A stretch of DNA of 64,000 bases, from positions 1-64,000 of the forward strand of contig REDR01000055.1 of NCBI GenBank assembly GCA_007693385.1, given 5' to 3'. The stretch comes from Anaerolineaceae bacterium. Its GTDB lineage: Bacteria; Chloroflexota; Anaerolineae; Aggregatilineales; Phototrophicaceae. The position numbers and the translations under genes are program-made. The notes below the pieces were generated by a model. That model was not told the DNA's origin, did not search any database, and saw only the letters and a program-made list of their open reading frames with translations. Below are positions 16,132-25,695 of this stretch, one piece after another (position 1 is the first letter of the stretch; every line of letters begins with the position of its first letter).

Positions 16132-18090
16132 ATGTATAGGGATATGCCAGAAACAACGCAATTTGGCAACACTGCAAATGACGGTAAAACCGCATCAATC
16201 GACGGTGGGCTAAACGCCAACAGTATTTTACGGAATCGCTATCGTATACTGGGCATCGTCGGCGGTGGCGGACAGGGTGCTGTCTACAGCGCCCGCGACT
16301 TGAACTTTGAAGCGAAGCGCCTCGTCGCTATCAAAGAGATGCGTTATGCTTCAAAAGACCCTAACGTGCGCTCGGTAGCTCTAGCGACATTCCAGCGCGA
16401 AGCCAATATTTTAGCAACGCTCACACATCCTACCATTCCAAAAATTTATGACTTTTTCGACCAGAACAACCGCGCTTATCTGGTTATGGAATTCGTCAAC
16501 GGTAGCGACCTTGAGGTTTTGCTCGGCAAGACCCGCGAATTACCGATGGAGAAAATCATCGAATGGTCAATTGATCTGTGCGATGTGTTGCACTATCTAC
16601 ACACACAGCCAAAACCGATCATCTTCCGCGACGTTAAACCGGCGAACATTATGGCGGATAGTCTGGGCAAAGCCCGTCTGATCGACTTCGGCATCGCCAA
16701 AATATTCGTCAGTGGCGTCAAGAACACTATGATCGGCACAGAGGGCTACTCCGCGCCCGAGCAATATAAGGGCGATGTTAGTCCACTGAGCGATGTCTAT
16801 GGATTGGGCGCGACGATCCATCACATTGTAACACGCAAAGACCCGCGCATCGAACAGCCCTTCAGCTTCAGCGAGCGCCCTTTGCGTGATTTCAACCCGA
16901 ATGCGCCGGAATATCTGCAAAAGATACTGGATCGTGCGCTGGACATGGACCCTTCACAACGTTATCAAACATGCGAAGAGATGAAGCAAGACCTCATTCG
17001 ACTGCGTGATGGTGGTGGTGCTGGTTCTGCTCCGGGCGTGACCAGTCGGCGACGTGAAGATGGGACGAGCTTCTTCGATGATGAACTATCAGCCTCCAAC
17101 TATGGCCCGCGCTGGACTTTCCAGACGGAAGACGAAATACGGGGTGGCGTGGCGGTGCATAATGACCGTGTGCTGGTTGGATCGTATGACACCAATATAT
17201 GGTCAATAAGTCTCGACGATGGCGATTTCCAGTGGAAACATGCCACGATGGGCGGCGTAGCGACGACACCCGTCGTTGATACTAAAAACGGATTGGTTTT
17301 CGCCGGTTCGGAAGATCATAACTTCTATGCCATCGACATCGAGACGGGGCGCGAAGCGTGGAAATACACCACCGGCGGACGGATCCGTTCATCGCCACGT
17401 CTGGCACACGATCACGTCTTCTTCGGCAGTGATGACGGCAAAGTATACGCATTAGCCACTGGTAGCGGGCGTGTGCTGTGGGAAACTGATGTCAACGCCG
17501 AAGTCCGCACCCGGCCTTATGTCACCAATAATCTGGTTATTGTCGGCACAGAAGGCGGCGAGCTGTGGGGGCTAGAACTGTCCGGCGTGCGTAAATGGAG
17601 CATGGACATCTCACGGCGGGCGCGGCAGATTTCATCTTCACCTATCGTCAACGAAAAAGAAGGTATCTGCTACGTCGGATGCTTTGACGGCAATATGTAC
17701 GCTGTCGATATTACAGGCGGTCATACCGTATGGCGTGCCCGTGTGGGCAAGCCGGTCATATCATCAGTGGCATTGTCGGACAACGGCGATACGATATACT
17801 TCGGCTGTGTGGATGGCAATCTGTACGCTTTCAATAGCGATACCTCCAAAGAGCGTTGGCGCTTCACGACGGAACAGCCAATTGTCGCCACGCCTATCGT
17901 GCACAATGACAAAATCTATTTTGGCGGCACGGATGGCATTTTCTACTGCATTGAAGCCAAGAATGGCAAAGAAAGCTGGCGGTACGAAACTGGTAACGCG
18001 ATCACCGGCATCCCGCAGGTCGTTGATGACCGCTTGATCCTCATTGGTTCGATGGATTATAAACTATACGCATTCCCGTTGGTGGGCTAG
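16132..18090 (+). CDS. Serine/threonine protein kinase with PQQ-type beta-propeller
   Basis: The first 300 or so of 652 residues are a Hanks-type kinase. They contain the glycine loop GGGGQGAVYSA, Lys68 in VAIKE, the catalytic loop FRDVKPAN (Asp167; HRD is FRD here), Asp185 in DFG and the TEGYSAPEQY activation segment. The rest is a seven- or eight-bladed PQQ-like propeller, with repeated W-x-x-x-T and VYFGSxDGxxYAxD blades. There is no transmembrane helix between the domains, so the propeller is probably cytoplasmic and binds a ligand or partner. It opens a tight operon with PP2C, J-VWA and FHA genes. The ATG at 16132 is preferred; an ATG at 16144 is possible. Confidence 0.9.
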   Translation: MYRDMPETTQFGNTANDGKTASIDGGLNANSILRNRYRILGIVGGGGQGAVYSARDLNFEAKRLVAIKEMRYASKDPNVRSVALATFQREANILATLTHPTIPKIYDFFDQNNRAYLVMEFVNGSDLEVLLGKTRELPMEKIIEWSIDLCDVLHYLHTQPKPIIFRDVKPANIMADSLGKARLIDFGIAKIFVSGVKNTMIGTEGYSAPEQYKGDVSPLSDVYGLGATIHHIVTRKDPRIEQPFSFSERPLRDFNPNAPEYLQKILDRALDMDPSQRYQTCEEMKQDLIRLRDGGGAGSAPGVTSRRREDGTSFFDDELSASNYGPRWTFQTEDEIRGGVAVHNDRVLVGSYDTNIWSISLDDGDFQWKHATMGGVATTPVVDTKNGLVFAGSEDHNFYAIDIETGREAWKYTTGGRIRSSPRLAHDHVFFGSDDGKVYALATGSGRVLWETDVNAEVRTRPYVTNNLVIVGTEGGELWGLELSGVRKWSMDISRRARQISSSPIVNEKEGICYVGCFDGNMYAVDITGGHTVWRARVGKPVISSVALSDNGDTIYFGCVDGNLYAFNSDTSKERWRFTTEQPIVATPIVHNDKIYFGGTDGIFYCIEAKNGKESWRYETGNAITGIPQVVDDRLILIGSMDYKLYAFPLVG

Positions 18091-18099
18091 GAGACAATC

Positions 18100-19128
18100 A
18101 TGGACTTATTTCGCCGTATATTTGGCAAAACCTCTGAGGAAATGCCCATCGAAAAACCGGCAGACTCAGCATCCAATGTGACTGAAGAAGGCGGAGGCAA
18201 TGAGCTAATCGACCCCAATGCAACCGCCGAACTGAGCGAAGACCCGCAAGACTTCGATCCGCAAACCCGTCCGGTGCGTCCTGCCGCGCTCAACAGCGCT
18301 CAAGACGGCATGACACGCCCGTTAGAACAAGCGGATATATTCGAGTTGTCGTCGGTCAATAGCGGAAGCATCGTATTCGGTCAGGCCAGCGATGTCGGCT
18401 TGGTGCGTAGTAATAATCAAGATGCGGTGCTGTCCTTCTTCAGCGCCAGCACCAGCGTTGACGAATACCCCGACTTCGGGCTATTCGTTGTCGCTGACGG
18501 CATGGGCGGGCATCAGGAAGGCGAAAAAGCGTCAGCCATTGCGACACGCACTATCGCCGCGCACGTCGCTAGTAGCATCTACATGCCAATCATCAGCGGC
18601 ACAGCACAAGAAAACCTCCCCCCTATTGGTGAGGCGCTGGTGGAGGGGGTGCAAAAGTCCAACAAAGGCGTGATGGATAGCGTGCCTGACGGAGGCACGA
18701 CGGTCACTGCGGTGGCGGTAATGAACGATTTAGCTTACGTCGCCCATGTCGGTGATAGCCGCGCCTATCTGATGACATCGGAAGGTATCGAGCAGATCAC
18801 ACGCGATCATTCACTCGTCCAGCGCCTGATCGAGTTGAATCAACTGACGCGGGAAGAAGCGGAGACGCATCCGCAGAAAAATGTCTTATATCGCGCTCTG
18901 GGACAAAACGAATCCGTCGAAGTCGATACGCTGACACGGCGACTGCCGGTGAATTCCAGATTATTGCTGTGCAGTGATGGGCTGTGGGGACAATTAGAAG
19001 AGCGTGATCTGTATGAAATCGCGTTCAATACTTCTAATCCGCAGGAAGCCTGTGATAAGTTGGTCGCATTAGCGAAGAATAATGGCGGGACGGACAATAT
19101 CACAATCATCCTGTTGAAAATCTCATAG
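18100..19128 (+). CDS. PP2C-family serine/threonine phosphatase
   Basis: The 342-residue protein has an acidic, Pro/Glu-rich N-terminal extension of about 85 residues followed by a complete PP2C domain. Metal-binding blocks are visible: RSNNQDA, VVADGMGGHQEGE, VAHVGDSRAYL, LLLCSDGLWG and GGTDNIT. It removes phosphate from Ser/Thr and is the natural antagonist of the kinase encoded 9 bases upstream. CTAGGAGAC precedes the ATG. The extension could hold phosphorylation sites or an FHA ligand, which is speculative. Confidence 0.93.
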   Translation: MDLFRRIFGKTSEEMPIEKPADSASNVTEEGGGNELIDPNATAELSEDPQDFDPQTRPVRPAALNSAQDGMTRPLEQADIFELSSVNSGSIVFGQASDVGLVRSNNQDAVLSFFSASTSVDEYPDFGLFVVADGMGGHQEGEKASAIATRTIAAHVASSIYMPIISGTAQENLPPIGEALVEGVQKSNKGVMDSVPDGGTTVTAVAVMNDLAYVAHVGDSRAYLMTSEGIEQITRDHSLVQRLIELNQLTREEAETHPQKNVLYRALGQNESVEVDTLTRRLPVNSRLLLCSDGLWGQLEERDLYEIAFNTSNPQEACDKLVALAKNNGGTDNITIILLKIS

Positions 19129-19141
19129 ACGACAAACTATC

Positions 19142-20644
19142 ATGACAAACTGGAATAAGAACCCTTACCGTGTTCTCGGTGTGCCGCAAGGCGCTTCTGT
19201 GAAAGAGATAAGGTCTGTTTATCGCAATGTCGCTAATCGGTTGCATCCGGATAAAAATCCGAATAATGCCGCCGCCGCCGCCCAATTTCAAGAGGTCGCG
19301 CTAGCGCACGAGATTTTATCGAACGCGCACAGACGGCAGGCTTATGATGACAGGCCGCGTACCAGCACTTACGAATTTACCATGCGGACGTTATCCAGCC
19401 GCAAAACTTTGCGCGTTCTTGACGAACCGCAGGTTATTTACTTGCTGACCAAGATTCAACCCGATCCAGCCGCTAAAGAGGAGATCAAAAATCGCCCTAC
19501 CCGTCTGAATTTAACGCTGGTTTTGGATCAAAGCAACTCAATGAAGGGCGCACGTATCGAAAAAGTTAAGATCGCCGCGCATCAAATCATCGACAATCTA
19601 TCAGACATGGATATTCTATCCGTCGTCACCTTCAATGACCGCTCTGAGACGATCATCGAAGCGACGCCCGCTAAAGATAAACCATCACTCAAAGCGAAAG
19701 TTAGCTTGATCGCGCCTTCCGGCGGCACAGAGATACACAAAGGGCTAGAAGCTGGCGCTATTGAATGCCGCAAGTTCCTGCAAAATGATCTGGTCAATCA
19801 CATCATCTTGCTGACGGACGGACACACATTCGGCGATCAGGAACGCACACTCGAATTAGTGGATGAACTGACACGCGAAGGTATCGGCGTCAGTGCGATG
19901 GGCTTGGGGCATGATTGGAACGATCAGTTCCTTGACGATCTAGCCTCGCGCAGTGGCGGCACATCTTCCTACATCACCTCAGCGAATGCCGTCGTGCGCT
20001 TCCTCAATGACCATGTGCGCAGTCTGGTCAATGCGTTTGCGGAGCGCATGTCTTTCTTCGTCGCGGTAGACGCCGGCGTGAAGTTAGAATCCGCTTTCCG
20101 CCTATCACCATCACCACAGCCATTAAAAGTCGGCAACAACATCATCCCATTAGGCAGTCTACAGATTGACCGCCCTATCTCAGTTCTGTTTCAGATTAAT
20201 CTACCGGCCAATATGGAGGTTGGGCGCTGTCACATTGCCCGCATCGCCGCCGAAGGAAATGTCTTGAGCAGTGATCCTCCGATCTGCTATGATGTAAATG
20301 ATATTGTGGTCAACACACAGCACGAACCGACACGTGAGGAGACACCATCCACAATATTAGAAGCGCTGAGTAAGTTGACGCTTTATAAACTGCAAGAACG
20401 CGCTCAAGAAGCCATCGAACAAGGTGACGCTGACGAAGCAACGAAACGTCTGAAAAACCTTGCAACGCGCTTTCTGGCGATGGGACAGGAGGAATTGGCA
20501 CAACAAGCCAGCGAAGAAGCCGGACGCATCCATAGCACGCGGCAATTTTCCGAGCGTGGACGCAAAACGCTGAAATATCAAACCCGTCACTTATTGGATG
20601 GTGGAGATCAAACTCGCCAGTACAGTGACGAGGCAGAGGAATAA
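19142..20644 (+). CDS. J-domain/von Willebrand A fusion protein
   Basis: Residues 7-70 are a DnaJ J-domain with the HPD motif intact (35-37). Residues about 120-300 are a VWA domain with a full MIDAS start, D129-x-S131-x-S133, and LLTDG. A beta-rich region and a charged helical C-terminal part (about 390-500, QERAQEAIEQGDADEATKRL) follow, similar to the C-terminus of Chloroflexota VWA proteins that sit with FHA genes. There is no glycine/phenylalanine or zinc-finger region, so it is not a classical DnaJ. The J-domain would bring DnaK to whatever the VWA domain holds. It lies between the PP2C and FHA genes. Confidence 0.85.
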   Translation: MTNWNKNPYRVLGVPQGASVKEIRSVYRNVANRLHPDKNPNNAAAAAQFQEVALAHEILSNAHRRQAYDDRPRTSTYEFTMRTLSSRKTLRVLDEPQVIYLLTKIQPDPAAKEEIKNRPTRLNLTLVLDQSNSMKGARIEKVKIAAHQIIDNLSDMDILSVVTFNDRSETIIEATPAKDKPSLKAKVSLIAPSGGTEIHKGLEAGAIECRKFLQNDLVNHIILLTDGHTFGDQERTLELVDELTREGIGVSAMGLGHDWNDQFLDDLASRSGGTSSYITSANAVVRFLNDHVRSLVNAFAERMSFFVAVDAGVKLESAFRLSPSPQPLKVGNNIIPLGSLQIDRPISVLFQINLPANMEVGRCHIARIAAEGNVLSSDPPICYDVNDIVVNTQHEPTREETPSTILEALSKLTLYKLQERAQEAIEQGDADEATKRLKNLATRFLAMGQEELAQQASEEAGRIHSTRQFSERGRKTLKYQTRHLLDGGDQTRQYSDEAEE

Positions 20645-20646
20645 CC

Positions 20647-21147
20647 ATGAAACTGTGCCCTTACTGTGGTCATAAAAACCTTGAAGGCGTGCTGTTCTGC
20701 GAAGAGTGTGGCGATAACCTATCCGATGCGCTGGACTCGACGTTGCCGACACGCCGCTTCGAGGATGCACTTTCTGAGTTTTCGGCTAAAGCGACATGGG
20801 GTTCGGCCAGCGTCGGGCAGATTAGATCAGTGGTGATACACTTCCGAAATACTGATAACCCGCTCGTCGTAGAACTGGCTGAGCGCATTGTGTTTGGTCG
20901 CGCCGATACCAGTAGCACTCGCCAGCCCGATGTCGATTTAACGCCTTATGGCGCACTTGAAAAAGGTGTTTCACGCATTCATGCCGCCATTGAACGCAGT
21001 GACGATGTGCTAACTTTAGTCGATGTCGGCAGTTCTAACGGCACCAATCTGAACGGCCAGCGTCTCGCTCCGGATCAACCGCGCGTACTGCGCGATGGCG
21101 ACGAGATACACTTTGGTAAACTGATTGCACATTTTTATTTCAGATAA
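20647..21147 (+). CDS. Zinc-ribbon and FHA-domain protein
   Basis: The 166-residue protein begins with a zinc ribbon (Cys4, Cys7, Cys18, Cys21) and ends with an FHA phosphothreonine-binding domain. The FHA motifs are IVFGRAD, GVSRIHAAIE and VGSSNGTNLNGQRL. It is probably the reader of threonines phosphorylated by the kinase of the same operon. It starts 2 bases after the J-VWA stop. The linker between the ribbon and the FHA domain is about 40 residues. Confidence 0.9.
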   Translation: MKLCPYCGHKNLEGVLFCEECGDNLSDALDSTLPTRRFEDALSEFSAKATWGSASVGQIRSVVIHFRNTDNPLVVELAERIVFGRADTSSTRQPDVDLTPYGALEKGVSRIHAAIERSDDVLTLVDVGSSNGTNLNGQRLAPDQPRVLRDGDEIHFGKLIAHFYFR

Positions 21148-21159
21148 CACGGAGTTTCC

Positions 21160-21405
21160 ATGCACACGGTCTTAGTACATATCGCTGATTCGGAACCAAT
21201 CAAGGCGGAAGTTGATGAACTTCCGTCGCCGCAAGATGTCACTGTGCTGTGCAGAAACCCGCGCCAGCGCACCGACAAAGACTTAGGTATGCTTGATGAA
21301 GGCGTCACGACGGTGATCTTTCCGATGCATCGCGTCAACTATATACAGGTGCTACCGCGTCCTGACGAAGAGATTGAATTCCCGATGCCGTTCCGTAATG
21401 ACTAG
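21160..21405 (+). CDS. Small conserved-looking protein in the signalling operon
   Basis: I do not recognise this 81-residue protein. It is soluble, mixed alpha/beta in pattern, acidic toward the C-terminus, and rich in prolines ([23 protein letters not shown]). It lies 12 bases after the FHA gene and 8 before the response regulator, with a reasonable ribosome site (ACGGAG). Its position suggests an accessory or adaptor role in the kinase system. Confidence 0.6.
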
Positions 21406-22148: not shown

Positions 22149-22150
22149 CA

Positions 22151-22195
22151 AAAAGCCGGGGAAGACCTTACATCATTGGTAATTCTCCGGCTTTT
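22151..22195. terminator. Bidirectional rho-independent terminator
   Basis: AAAAGCCGGGGAA (22151-22163) pairs with TTCTCCGGCTTTT (22183-22195), with one G-U pair and a 19-base loop. The A- and T-runs serve both strands. It separates the signalling operon from the convergent deaminase-like gene. Confidence 0.8.
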
Positions 22196-22208
22196 ATCAG
22201 ATTTATTC

Positions 22209-23267
22209 TTATGATTCTGCGGGTGACTCGCCCTGCTCCATCGCTTTCCGCAGTTGGCTGATTTCATTAAGAAACATCGCCGATAACTCGGCTTTGGTCG
22301 GTTCGTCCAGAAAACTATATTGCAATCCGTTGAGTACCAGTTGATCGATCTCATCCATCGTCAAGTCAGCATCCCGTGCGGCCTGCAAATACACATCTGT
22401 CGTATTCTGCCCGAATATCTCTGGCAGGTCGGCGCTCAACGTCAACGCGAGATGCCGATCTAATAGAGCACGTAGCGGATAACTGCCGCTTTCGTTCAAC
22501 TTCTTCAGCGCTTTGGCGCGAGACGGCGTGGCGATGACCGCTATATCTTGCTCGATGATCGCCGCAATAGCGGCTGGACTGTCCAACAGACCCACCGCAT
22601 CAACGATTCGATCCGGTGCAAGATGCGCCAGCACTTCGTCAATCGCTTCTGCGCCCGCAATCTCACCGGAGCGAGTGAAGGTCGGCACGTTCTTCTTTTC
22701 TGCGGTCTGAAACGCTCGTTCAAACTGTCCGATAGGTTGCGCGTCCTCGCGTCCGGTCAGCCCATAGCCGACAATGTGGTGTTTCTTACCCGCCGCACTC
22801 GACGCCATACGCATCACTTCGTCGGCGCGGCGCGGCTCTTCGCGTGAGACGACTAGATTCCATCGAATAATAATGCCCCACCCTCTCTGTGCGCGGTCAC
22901 GGCCATCATTCAGCGCGGTCATGAAGGTATCAAACGTCATGTTGCCCGGCATGAAAAGCGACGGGTTGACGCTGATCTCGGCATACTTCACATTCTGTTT
23001 AGAGAGTGTGAGGCCGGCATCGTATACAATACGTGCCAGATCATCCGGATAACGCAACCAACCACAAACTCCCTGCACCAATTCGTCCAGACGGTTCGTG
23101 TCGCGCTTTTCCAGAAGATCACGGGTGGCGATGTACGGCTTCCGCGCCTCCACCATGATTTCGTTCTGCTCGGCGACCATCAACCATGCTTCCGCCCTCA
23201 CAGCGCCTTCTAGCGAAATATTCAGCTCCGCTTTGGGCATTGATTCGATATAACCGGCAATATCCAT
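22209..23267 (-). CDS. Adenosine-deaminase-fold protein lacking the zinc ligands (probable pseudoenzyme)
   Basis: The 352 residues follow adenosine deaminase from end to end, but the metal and catalytic positions are changed. The zinc HxH of PKxELHxHLEG is Asn16-x-Ser18 in PKAELNISLEGA. The third histidine ligand (THAGE) is Arg199 in TRSGE, with Glu202 kept. RIGHG reads RIVDA (Asp223). The final SDDP reads SADLP, leaving one Asp (280). Deamination by the known mechanism should not be possible. It may bind a nucleoside or a protein partner. It follows pyrG by 40 bases with GAGGAA before its ATG, so the two are probably co-transcribed. The reading frame is intact, with no sign of decay. Confidence 0.85.
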   Translation of the reverse strand: MDIAGYIESMPKAELNISLEGAVRAEAWLMVAEQNEIMVEARKPYIATRDLLEKRDTNRLDELVQGVCGWLRYPDDLARIVYDAGLTLSKQNVKYAEISVNPSLFMPGNMTFDTFMTALNDGRDRAQRGWGIIIRWNLVVSREEPRRADEVMRMASSAAGKKHHIVGYGLTGREDAQPIGQFERAFQTAEKKNVPTFTRSGEIAGAEAIDEVLAHLAPDRIVDAVGLLDSPAAIAAIIEQDIAVIATPSRAKALKKLNESGSYPLRALLDRHLALTLSADLPEIFGQNTTDVYLQAARDADLTMDEIDQLVLNGLQYSFLDEPTKAELSAMFLNEISQLRKAMEQGESPAES

Positions 23268-23307
23268 TATTCATTCCTCAAAATCTATCACCAAAACGGG
23301 ACACGCG

Positions 23308-24945
<1,638 letters not shown>

Positions 24946-25044: not shown

Positions 25045-25416
25045 CTAAACCAGCTTTTCAAGATCGTCAGCAGTGCGACGCATATCCAGAAAAATCAGAC
25101 CGAGCTTAGCGCCTTCACGCACTAGCGTCGTCAAAACGGCTTCTTCCCCGATAGACATCAGGATAACGTAGCCGCTATCGCCCCTGACGTAAACCTGATC
25201 CAGCGAACCGCGCCCCAGTTCGCTAGCGATGCGTTCACCTAGCGATAGCATGGCCGCCGACATCGCAGAAACGCGGTCTTCTTCAATGCCTGCGGGCAAC
25301 GATGAAGCCATAATCAAGCCGTCTACGCTGACCACAGCCGAAGCTTCAATTTCTGGTGTGGTTGCCTGTAAGTCACGTAGACGATCAACCATCAACTCTG
25401 TCCGCGATTTTGCCAT
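25045..25416 (-). CDS. Roadblock/LC7-domain protein
   Basis: This is a 123-residue single roadblock/LC7 domain, which in bacteria regulates Ras-like GTPases such as MglA or forms homodimeric scaffolds. The pattern EASAVVSVDGLIMASSLP, the GRGSLDQVYVRGDSGYVILM strands and the closing GLIFLDMRRTADDL helix are typical. The ATG at 25416 has GAGGAG 7 bases upstream; an in-frame start at 25452 would lack a ribosome site. No GTPase gene is nearby. Confidence 0.87.
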   Translation of the reverse strand: MAKSRTELMVDRLRDLQATTPEIEASAVVSVDGLIMASSLPAGIEEDRVSAMSAAMLSLGERIASELGRGSLDQVYVRGDSGYVILMSIGEEAVLTTLVREGAKLGLIFLDMRRTADDLEKLV

Positions 25417-25695
25417 GTCTCGTCTCCTCTCGAATGTAGTCCGGCCATCCATCGCCGGTCAAATGTCACCGAATGCTCACCCGCAACCGGGGGAATTTAA
25501 CTGAAGTAGTCGCCTAACCCACAATTATACAGCACCTGCGCCTTTCAGCAAGTTACAGAGCCTATCCAGTTTTACGACTTCGATTATACTTCACAGTGGG
25601 CGTCCGTAGGGTAATCGTTAATGGTCTGCCCTTCTCATCTTAAACAGTTTGTCCGATACTCTATTGTGTGACCGATCTTGGAGTTTAGAGAATCT

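Follow-up and report, generated by a model that had tools for sequence, protein, structure and literature searches.

A gene directly behind pyrG (CTP synthase) in the window, by which we mean the whole stretch of 64,000 nucleotides analysed here, encodes an adenosine deaminase (ADA) homologue in which all three zinc-binding histidines have been replaced. Judging from sequence comparisons, it belongs to a real, family-wide group of pseudo-deaminases with a well documented origin. We consider it close to certain that this protein (hereafter pseudo-ADA) has been retained as something other than a deaminase. On balance, we lean towards the explanation that it is a dead pseudo-deaminase, made together with CTP synthase, that serves as a binding or regulatory partner.

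Gene and operon layout

The reading frame of pseudo-ADA, as read from the sequence, runs undamaged from ATG to TAA over 352 aa. It lies on the same strand as pyrG, separated from it by a gap of 40 bp. The features of the operon are:

22150..22206, minus strand: terminator-like hairpin at the operon end (RNA fold -17 kcal/mol, z = -3.4, then a T run)
22209..23267, minus strand: pseudo-adenosine deaminase gene (352 aa; Pfam A_deaminase 3.7e-41; AlphaFold2 pLDDT 96; in 82/98 family genomes)
23274..23279, minus strand: Shine-Dalgarno sequence GAGGAA, 6 nt before the ATG of pseudo-ADA (read from the sequence)
23308..24942, minus strand: pyrG, CTP synthase, directly upstream (Pfam CTP_synth_N 8e-122, GATase 1e-40)
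25045..25452, minus strand: Roadblock/LC7 gene upstream of pyrG (Pfam Robl_LC7 2e-18)

Co-occurrence with pyrG, which a preliminary description of this DNA had proposed checking, takes the form of strict adjacency: pseudo-ADA is directly downstream of pyrG and on the same strand in all of the copies that have their upstream region on the contig (80/80). The gaps between the two genes are short across relatives, with several overlaps (-11, -4, -1), and in many genera the Shine-Dalgarno sequence of pseudo-ADA lies inside the last pyrG codons or its start overlaps pyrG. Farther out, the flanks are scrambled in several genera; the adjacency to pyrG is maintained nonetheless. Pseudo-ADA is thus probably co-expressed with pyrG, often by translational coupling. 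Given that adjacency persists despite the scrambled flanks, and that the start codons are coupled to the end of pyrG, we suspect that co-expression is still under selection.

Some PyrG proteins (L052, L054, L056, L245, L258 and L259) have C-terminal tails with ELRN/ARK-like endings. Docking of pseudo-ADA on such a tail, with a DExxLRN-like ending shared by several genera, was considered and rejected because the LRN/LRK codons (AAGGAA/GAGGAA) hold the Shine-Dalgarno sequence of the next gene. Read at the codon level, the tail residues form a protein motif to which a ribosome-binding site has given rise.

The Roadblock/LC7 gene precedes pyrG throughout the order, whether the ADA gene is present or absent, and we know of no reason for this pairing. 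Elsewhere in the window, at 16132-21405 on the plus strand, there is a conserved cluster with genes for a Ser/Thr kinase with a beta-propeller, a phosphatase-like protein, a DnaJ-vWA-type protein and a zinc-ribbon FHA protein. The same cluster includes an 81-aa gene (21160-21405, plus strand) that has no Pfam match and is conserved across the family.

Fold and catalytic residues

Residues 11-329 of the window protein match Pfam A_deaminase (PF00962) with 141.7 bits against a cut-off of 27 (E=3.7e-41), and the cut-off of the ADA equivalog model TIGR01430 is not reached (166.9 vs 216.55 bits). Its top PDB matches in a sequence search are all ADAs. An AlphaFold2 model built from the window protein and its relatives has a pLDDT of 96 and a pTM of 0.93, and Foldseek places it nearest to solved ADA structures of human, mouse and bacterial origin (TM about 0.84). 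Structure prediction and comparison with ADA, also proposed earlier, thus give a confident ADA-like model, in agreement with the original statement that sequence and length follow the ADA family and that the frame is undamaged. The window protein has the same barrel fold as ADA (PF00962; TIGR01430; mouse and human ADA1) over its full length, but three of its four zinc ligands are gone, and so are the general base His238 and the substrate-binding Asp296.

An ADA domain is also found in the CARF-ADA (Cad1) CRISPR effectors (PADLOC CARF_ADA 1e-23; Foldseek). The window protein differs in having neither a CARF domain nor a CRISPR context, and kinship with these effectors was rejected because the match is due to the shared domain only.

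In ADA, Glu217 acts as the proton donor and His238 as the general base, and the zinc site consists of three histidines and one aspartate (PMC12063184). The corresponding positions in the window copy, all assigned by alignment, are:

23214..23222, minus strand: former HxH zinc ligands (His15, His17), now N16-I-S18; His at both positions in all intact homologues
22662..22673, minus strand: former HAGE, now R199-S-G-E202; zinc ligand His214 lost, Glu217 kept
22596..22610, minus strand: former RIGHG, now RIVDA (R220-I-V-D223-A224); catalytic His238 is D223
22422..22433, minus strand: former SDDP, now A279-D280-L281-P282; Asp295 kept, Asp296 lost

The alignment to ADA bears out the claim that all three zinc histidines are replaced (by N16, S18 and R199), as well as the change of RIGHG to RIVDA with D223 in place of His238. 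The latter is the fourth histidine lost in this protein, a general base and not a zinc ligand. The SDDP motif has indeed changed (Asp296 is now L281), but its original alignment to SADLP was shifted by one, and ADLP is correct. It follows that the zinc ligand Asp295 is kept, as D280. The proton donor Glu217 is kept as well, as E202. A lack of deaminase activity is predicted from these replacements.

Distribution and loss of catalytic residues

A genome search found pseudo-ADA in 82 of the 98 genomes of the window's family, where it scores at E-values of at most 1.5e-117, compared with 1.4e-70 or weaker for intact paralogues. A search for relatives recovered about 26 orthologues with 31-45% identity, their motifs broken in differing ways. 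All 81 copies that were read are open frames, none of them broken, and every one has lost His238 and Asp296 (81/81). The other catalytic residues have fared differently from copy to copy: Asp295 is kept in 33/81 and Glu217 in 14/81, and between genera the residue found in place of His214 may be Q, R, N, H, S or yet another, and that in place of Glu217 may be D, S, E, A, T or H. None of the seven catalytic residues is left in 29/81 copies and one is left in 31/81. One copy (L010, from G004) keeps five of the seven, with a whole zinc site.

Relatives with altered motifs, for which a search had been suggested, are therefore found clade-wide (82/98 genomes), with motif changes that vary. A single-strain loss is rejected, given the number of genomes that carry the gene and the absence of His238 and Asp296 from every copy read. 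Catalytic residues have been lost throughout the clade while fold and frame were kept under purifying selection, and these proteins thus appear to be pseudoenzymes. Annotation pipelines may call them adenosine deaminase, which would lead to false metabolic predictions for environmental Chloroflexota.

Within the family, pyrG occurs without pseudo-ADA in at least nine genomes. The gene was lost and pyrG kept in a subgroup of genus g17 (L087, L266-L269), and also in genomes of g9, g11 and g16 (L086, L091, L093, L096), apparently by separate losses. Six family genomes lack both pyrG and pseudo-ADA, probably due to assembly gaps, and one has a pyrG fragment only. No second ADA homologue was found in 34 of the 82 genomes that carry pseudo-ADA.

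Outside the family, neither the rest of the order nor a sample of 400 genomes from the phylum yielded anything of the pseudo-ADA type; the best scores there were far lower, and the matches that were read are intact ADAs. When 85,000 species genomes were scanned with an alignment-based query (a single-sequence query gave no matches), this yielded 39 named loci of the pseudo-ADA kind, titled Anaerolineae, Chloroflexi or Aggregatilineales, and below them only intact ADAs. By this distribution, the window belongs to the Chloroflexota, class Anaerolineae, and probably to the order Aggregatilineales.

Probable origin from active, pyrG-linked deaminases

In the sister families f3 and f8, an ADA gene lies directly behind pyrG in 11 genomes and three others, and every catalytic residue is intact in all of these proteins. 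The pseudo-ADA clade is monophyletic (support 100/100) in a tree built from 53 ADAs, where a 99/98 branch sets the pyrG-linked ADAs apart from the unlinked ones, the sole exception being L149. Thus, the tree identifies the pyrG-linked active ADAs of the sister families as kin of the window protein. The exception, at 2557-3573 of L149, is an ADA from a Desulfobulbaceae MAG that is nested among pyrG-linked Chloroflexota ADAs (97/90), either by transfer or through bin contamination.

Since the sister families have a linked and fully intact ADA, the link to pyrG is older than the loss of catalysis. The simplest history is that the link came first and that catalysis was then lost in this family only. 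In this scenario, the ancestor of several Aggregatilineales families would already have had an active ADA behind pyrG, and the window's family would later have lost His238 and Asp296, followed piecemeal by the zinc ligands. This order is probable because no copy read has His238 or Asp296, whereas some genera still have zinc ligands. Most pseudoenzymes turn up singly and leave no trace of their history; in this case, the course of events can be followed because intact, partly disarmed and fully dead forms survive at one fixed locus.

Selection and the shift of conservation

Among 45 close pairs, the median dN/dS is 0.134 for pseudo-ADA vs 0.049 for pyrG, and a value of about 0.13 indicates that the pseudo-ADA protein is constrained. 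Where this constraint falls has changed. In a comparison at equal sample sizes, the entropy of the outer helices alpha1-alpha4 relative to the protein average, in a zone that mixes buried and exposed positions, is 0.72 in the pseudo clade, vs 1.42 in linked and 1.23 in unlinked active ADAs. The reverse holds for the catalytic mouth (the strand ends and loops of beta5-beta8), at 1.18 in the pseudo clade vs 0.45 for the linked and 0.63 for the unlinked active ADAs. The helices, placed by DSSP of the model, and the residues in them that stand out by conservation are:

22998..23048, minus strand: helix alpha1 (74-90), clade-specific Y82, L88, K90
22878..22934, minus strand: helix alpha2 (112-130), clade-specific D121, R125, R128, W130
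22800..22835, minus strand: helix alpha3 (145-156), R146, D149, R153
22692..22733, minus strand: helix alpha4 and its end (179-192), Q181, R184, K191, K192

There are 23 positions newly fixed in the clade, 16 of which are in alpha1-alpha4 and their ends (68/340 columns; P 1e-7, an optimistic value because the helix zone was chosen after the profile was seen). The strongest are D121, W130 and R153 together with W48, P55, W70, K90, R128, R146, R184, K191 and P218, the last nine being present in 84-100% of the clade and 0-15% of active ADAs. Most active ADAs have Asp or Glu at the position of R146, and many have one of these two acidic residues at that of R184. The window copy has 21/23 of the newly fixed residues, with deviations at T48 and R55. 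The spacing of positions 121-125-128, 146-149-153 and 177-181-184 suggests that they form faces of neighbouring helices. We rejected the idea that this surface arose already with the link to pyrG, given that linked active ADAs lack most of the gained residues.

The former catalytic positions vary less than average within genera (8/124 changes, vs 882/6158 for the average), so that the old pocket cannot be regarded as unconstrained. The proposal that the gene is under selection for a role other than deamination gains support from its presence in 82/98 genomes, the dN/dS of about 0.13, the newly fixed residues and the invariant place behind pyrG.

Possible functions

A binding or regulatory subunit is suggested by the kept fold, the lost chemistry, the fixed helix surface and the expression tied to CTP synthase. 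The barrel was kept, while the outer helices alpha1-alpha4 were probably remodelled to give a conserved surface, largely basic and aromatic in character. Pseudo-ADA, made together with CTP synthase, most likely binds a protein partner that is made in matched amounts. That it works by binding a macromolecular partner of some kind seems probable to us. CTP synthase would be the first candidate, with pseudo-ADA as a regulatory or assembly subunit; we hold the identification of PyrG as the partner to be plausible, with somewhat less than even confidence. Both the gene order and the translational coupling are indications of PyrG. The PyrG comparison found no residues specific to genomes with pseudo-ADA and no columns where independent gene-losers deviate together. 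PyrG does not depend on pseudo-ADA in all settings, given the family genomes that have only pyrG. A paralogous ADA is an unlikely partner, and a role as its regulator is disfavoured, because the 34 genomes noted above have no other ADA homologue.

More specifically, and more tentatively, pseudo-ADA could regulate bacterial CTP synthase as a hitherto undescribed subunit, one that evolved from an active ADA operon partner, with active, partly disarmed and dead forms all extant. If the partner is CTP synthase, this would represent a novel means of controlling an essential enzyme.

Pseudo-ADA could also bind a target other than PyrG, its place in the operon being inherited from the active ancestor and now irrelevant. 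The linkage to pyrG is older than the loss of catalysis, PyrG has no matching changes, and several genera retained pyrG after losing pseudo-ADA, all as expected if the target lies elsewhere. We nevertheless consider this unlikely, given the 80/80 adjacency despite scrambled outer flanks in several genera and the coupling of start codons to the end of pyrG.

A somewhat less probable alternative is that the dead pocket binds a nucleoside or nucleotide and informs CTP synthase, or some other protein, of its level. The predicted model retains both fold and pocket, the old catalytic positions change little within genera, and an operon link to a nucleotide enzyme would fit; Gly184, which lines the purine site in ADA, is kept as G172. 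However, between genera the pocket residues occur in many states, which does not fit a site for a single conserved ligand, and constraint has shifted to the outer helices. As a family-wide function of the old pocket, the nucleoside binding suggested earlier is not upheld, since the former pocket residues differ between genera.

New catalysis by a metal-free or differently metallated hydrolase in the old pocket appears very improbable. In its favour, ADA has a versatile hydrolase fold and the window copy retains both Asp295 and Glu217, but these two residues occur in only 33/81 and 14/81 copies, and no new polar residue set is fixed at the pocket across the clade. A decaying relic or pseudogene under relaxed selection, as might be suspected from evolution about 2.7 times faster than that of pyrG by dN/dS and from the loss of the gene in some genera, is rejected on the basis of the dN/dS of about 0.13, the intact frames of all copies read and the newly fixed residues.

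Comparison with known systems

The statement that no role is described for such a protein beside pyrG agrees with the open-licence literature, in which we found no ADA pseudoenzyme, pyrG-ADA operon or inactive amidohydrolase-superfamily ADA of this sort; this absence is weak evidence because only open-licence papers were covered. The pseudo-ADA family is new, and pseudoenzymes paired with nucleotide-synthesis enzymes are already a known kind.

A non-catalytic partner of CTP synthase would have a close parallel in the inactive dihydroorotase PyrC', which, according to work cited in PMC4581275, is needed to assemble the Pseudomonas aspartate transcarbamoylase dodecamer. PyrC' is likewise a dead pseudoenzyme of amidohydrolase fold encoded with a pyrimidine-synthesis enzyme. 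It belongs to another amidohydrolase family and has another partner enzyme. MetCb, the metal-free arginase-family subunit of metformin hydrolase, binds a partner from the same operon (PMC11271267) and, like pseudo-ADA, has lost its metal ligands. It differs in that MetCb partners its own active paralogue, whereas 34 of the pseudo-ADA genomes have no other ADA homologue. In the manner of PyrC' and MetCb, pseudo-ADA is encoded beside its candidate partner, behind pyrG in 80/80 copies with short gaps or overlaps.

Mammalian ADA binds CD26 non-catalytically through helices 76-91 and 126-143 (PMC5818423). Mammalian ADA differs from pseudo-ADA in being still catalytic, and CD26 is a mammalian cell-surface protein; by alignment, the CD26-docking helices match window helices 74-90 and 112-130, where newly fixed residues of the pseudo-ADA clade lie.
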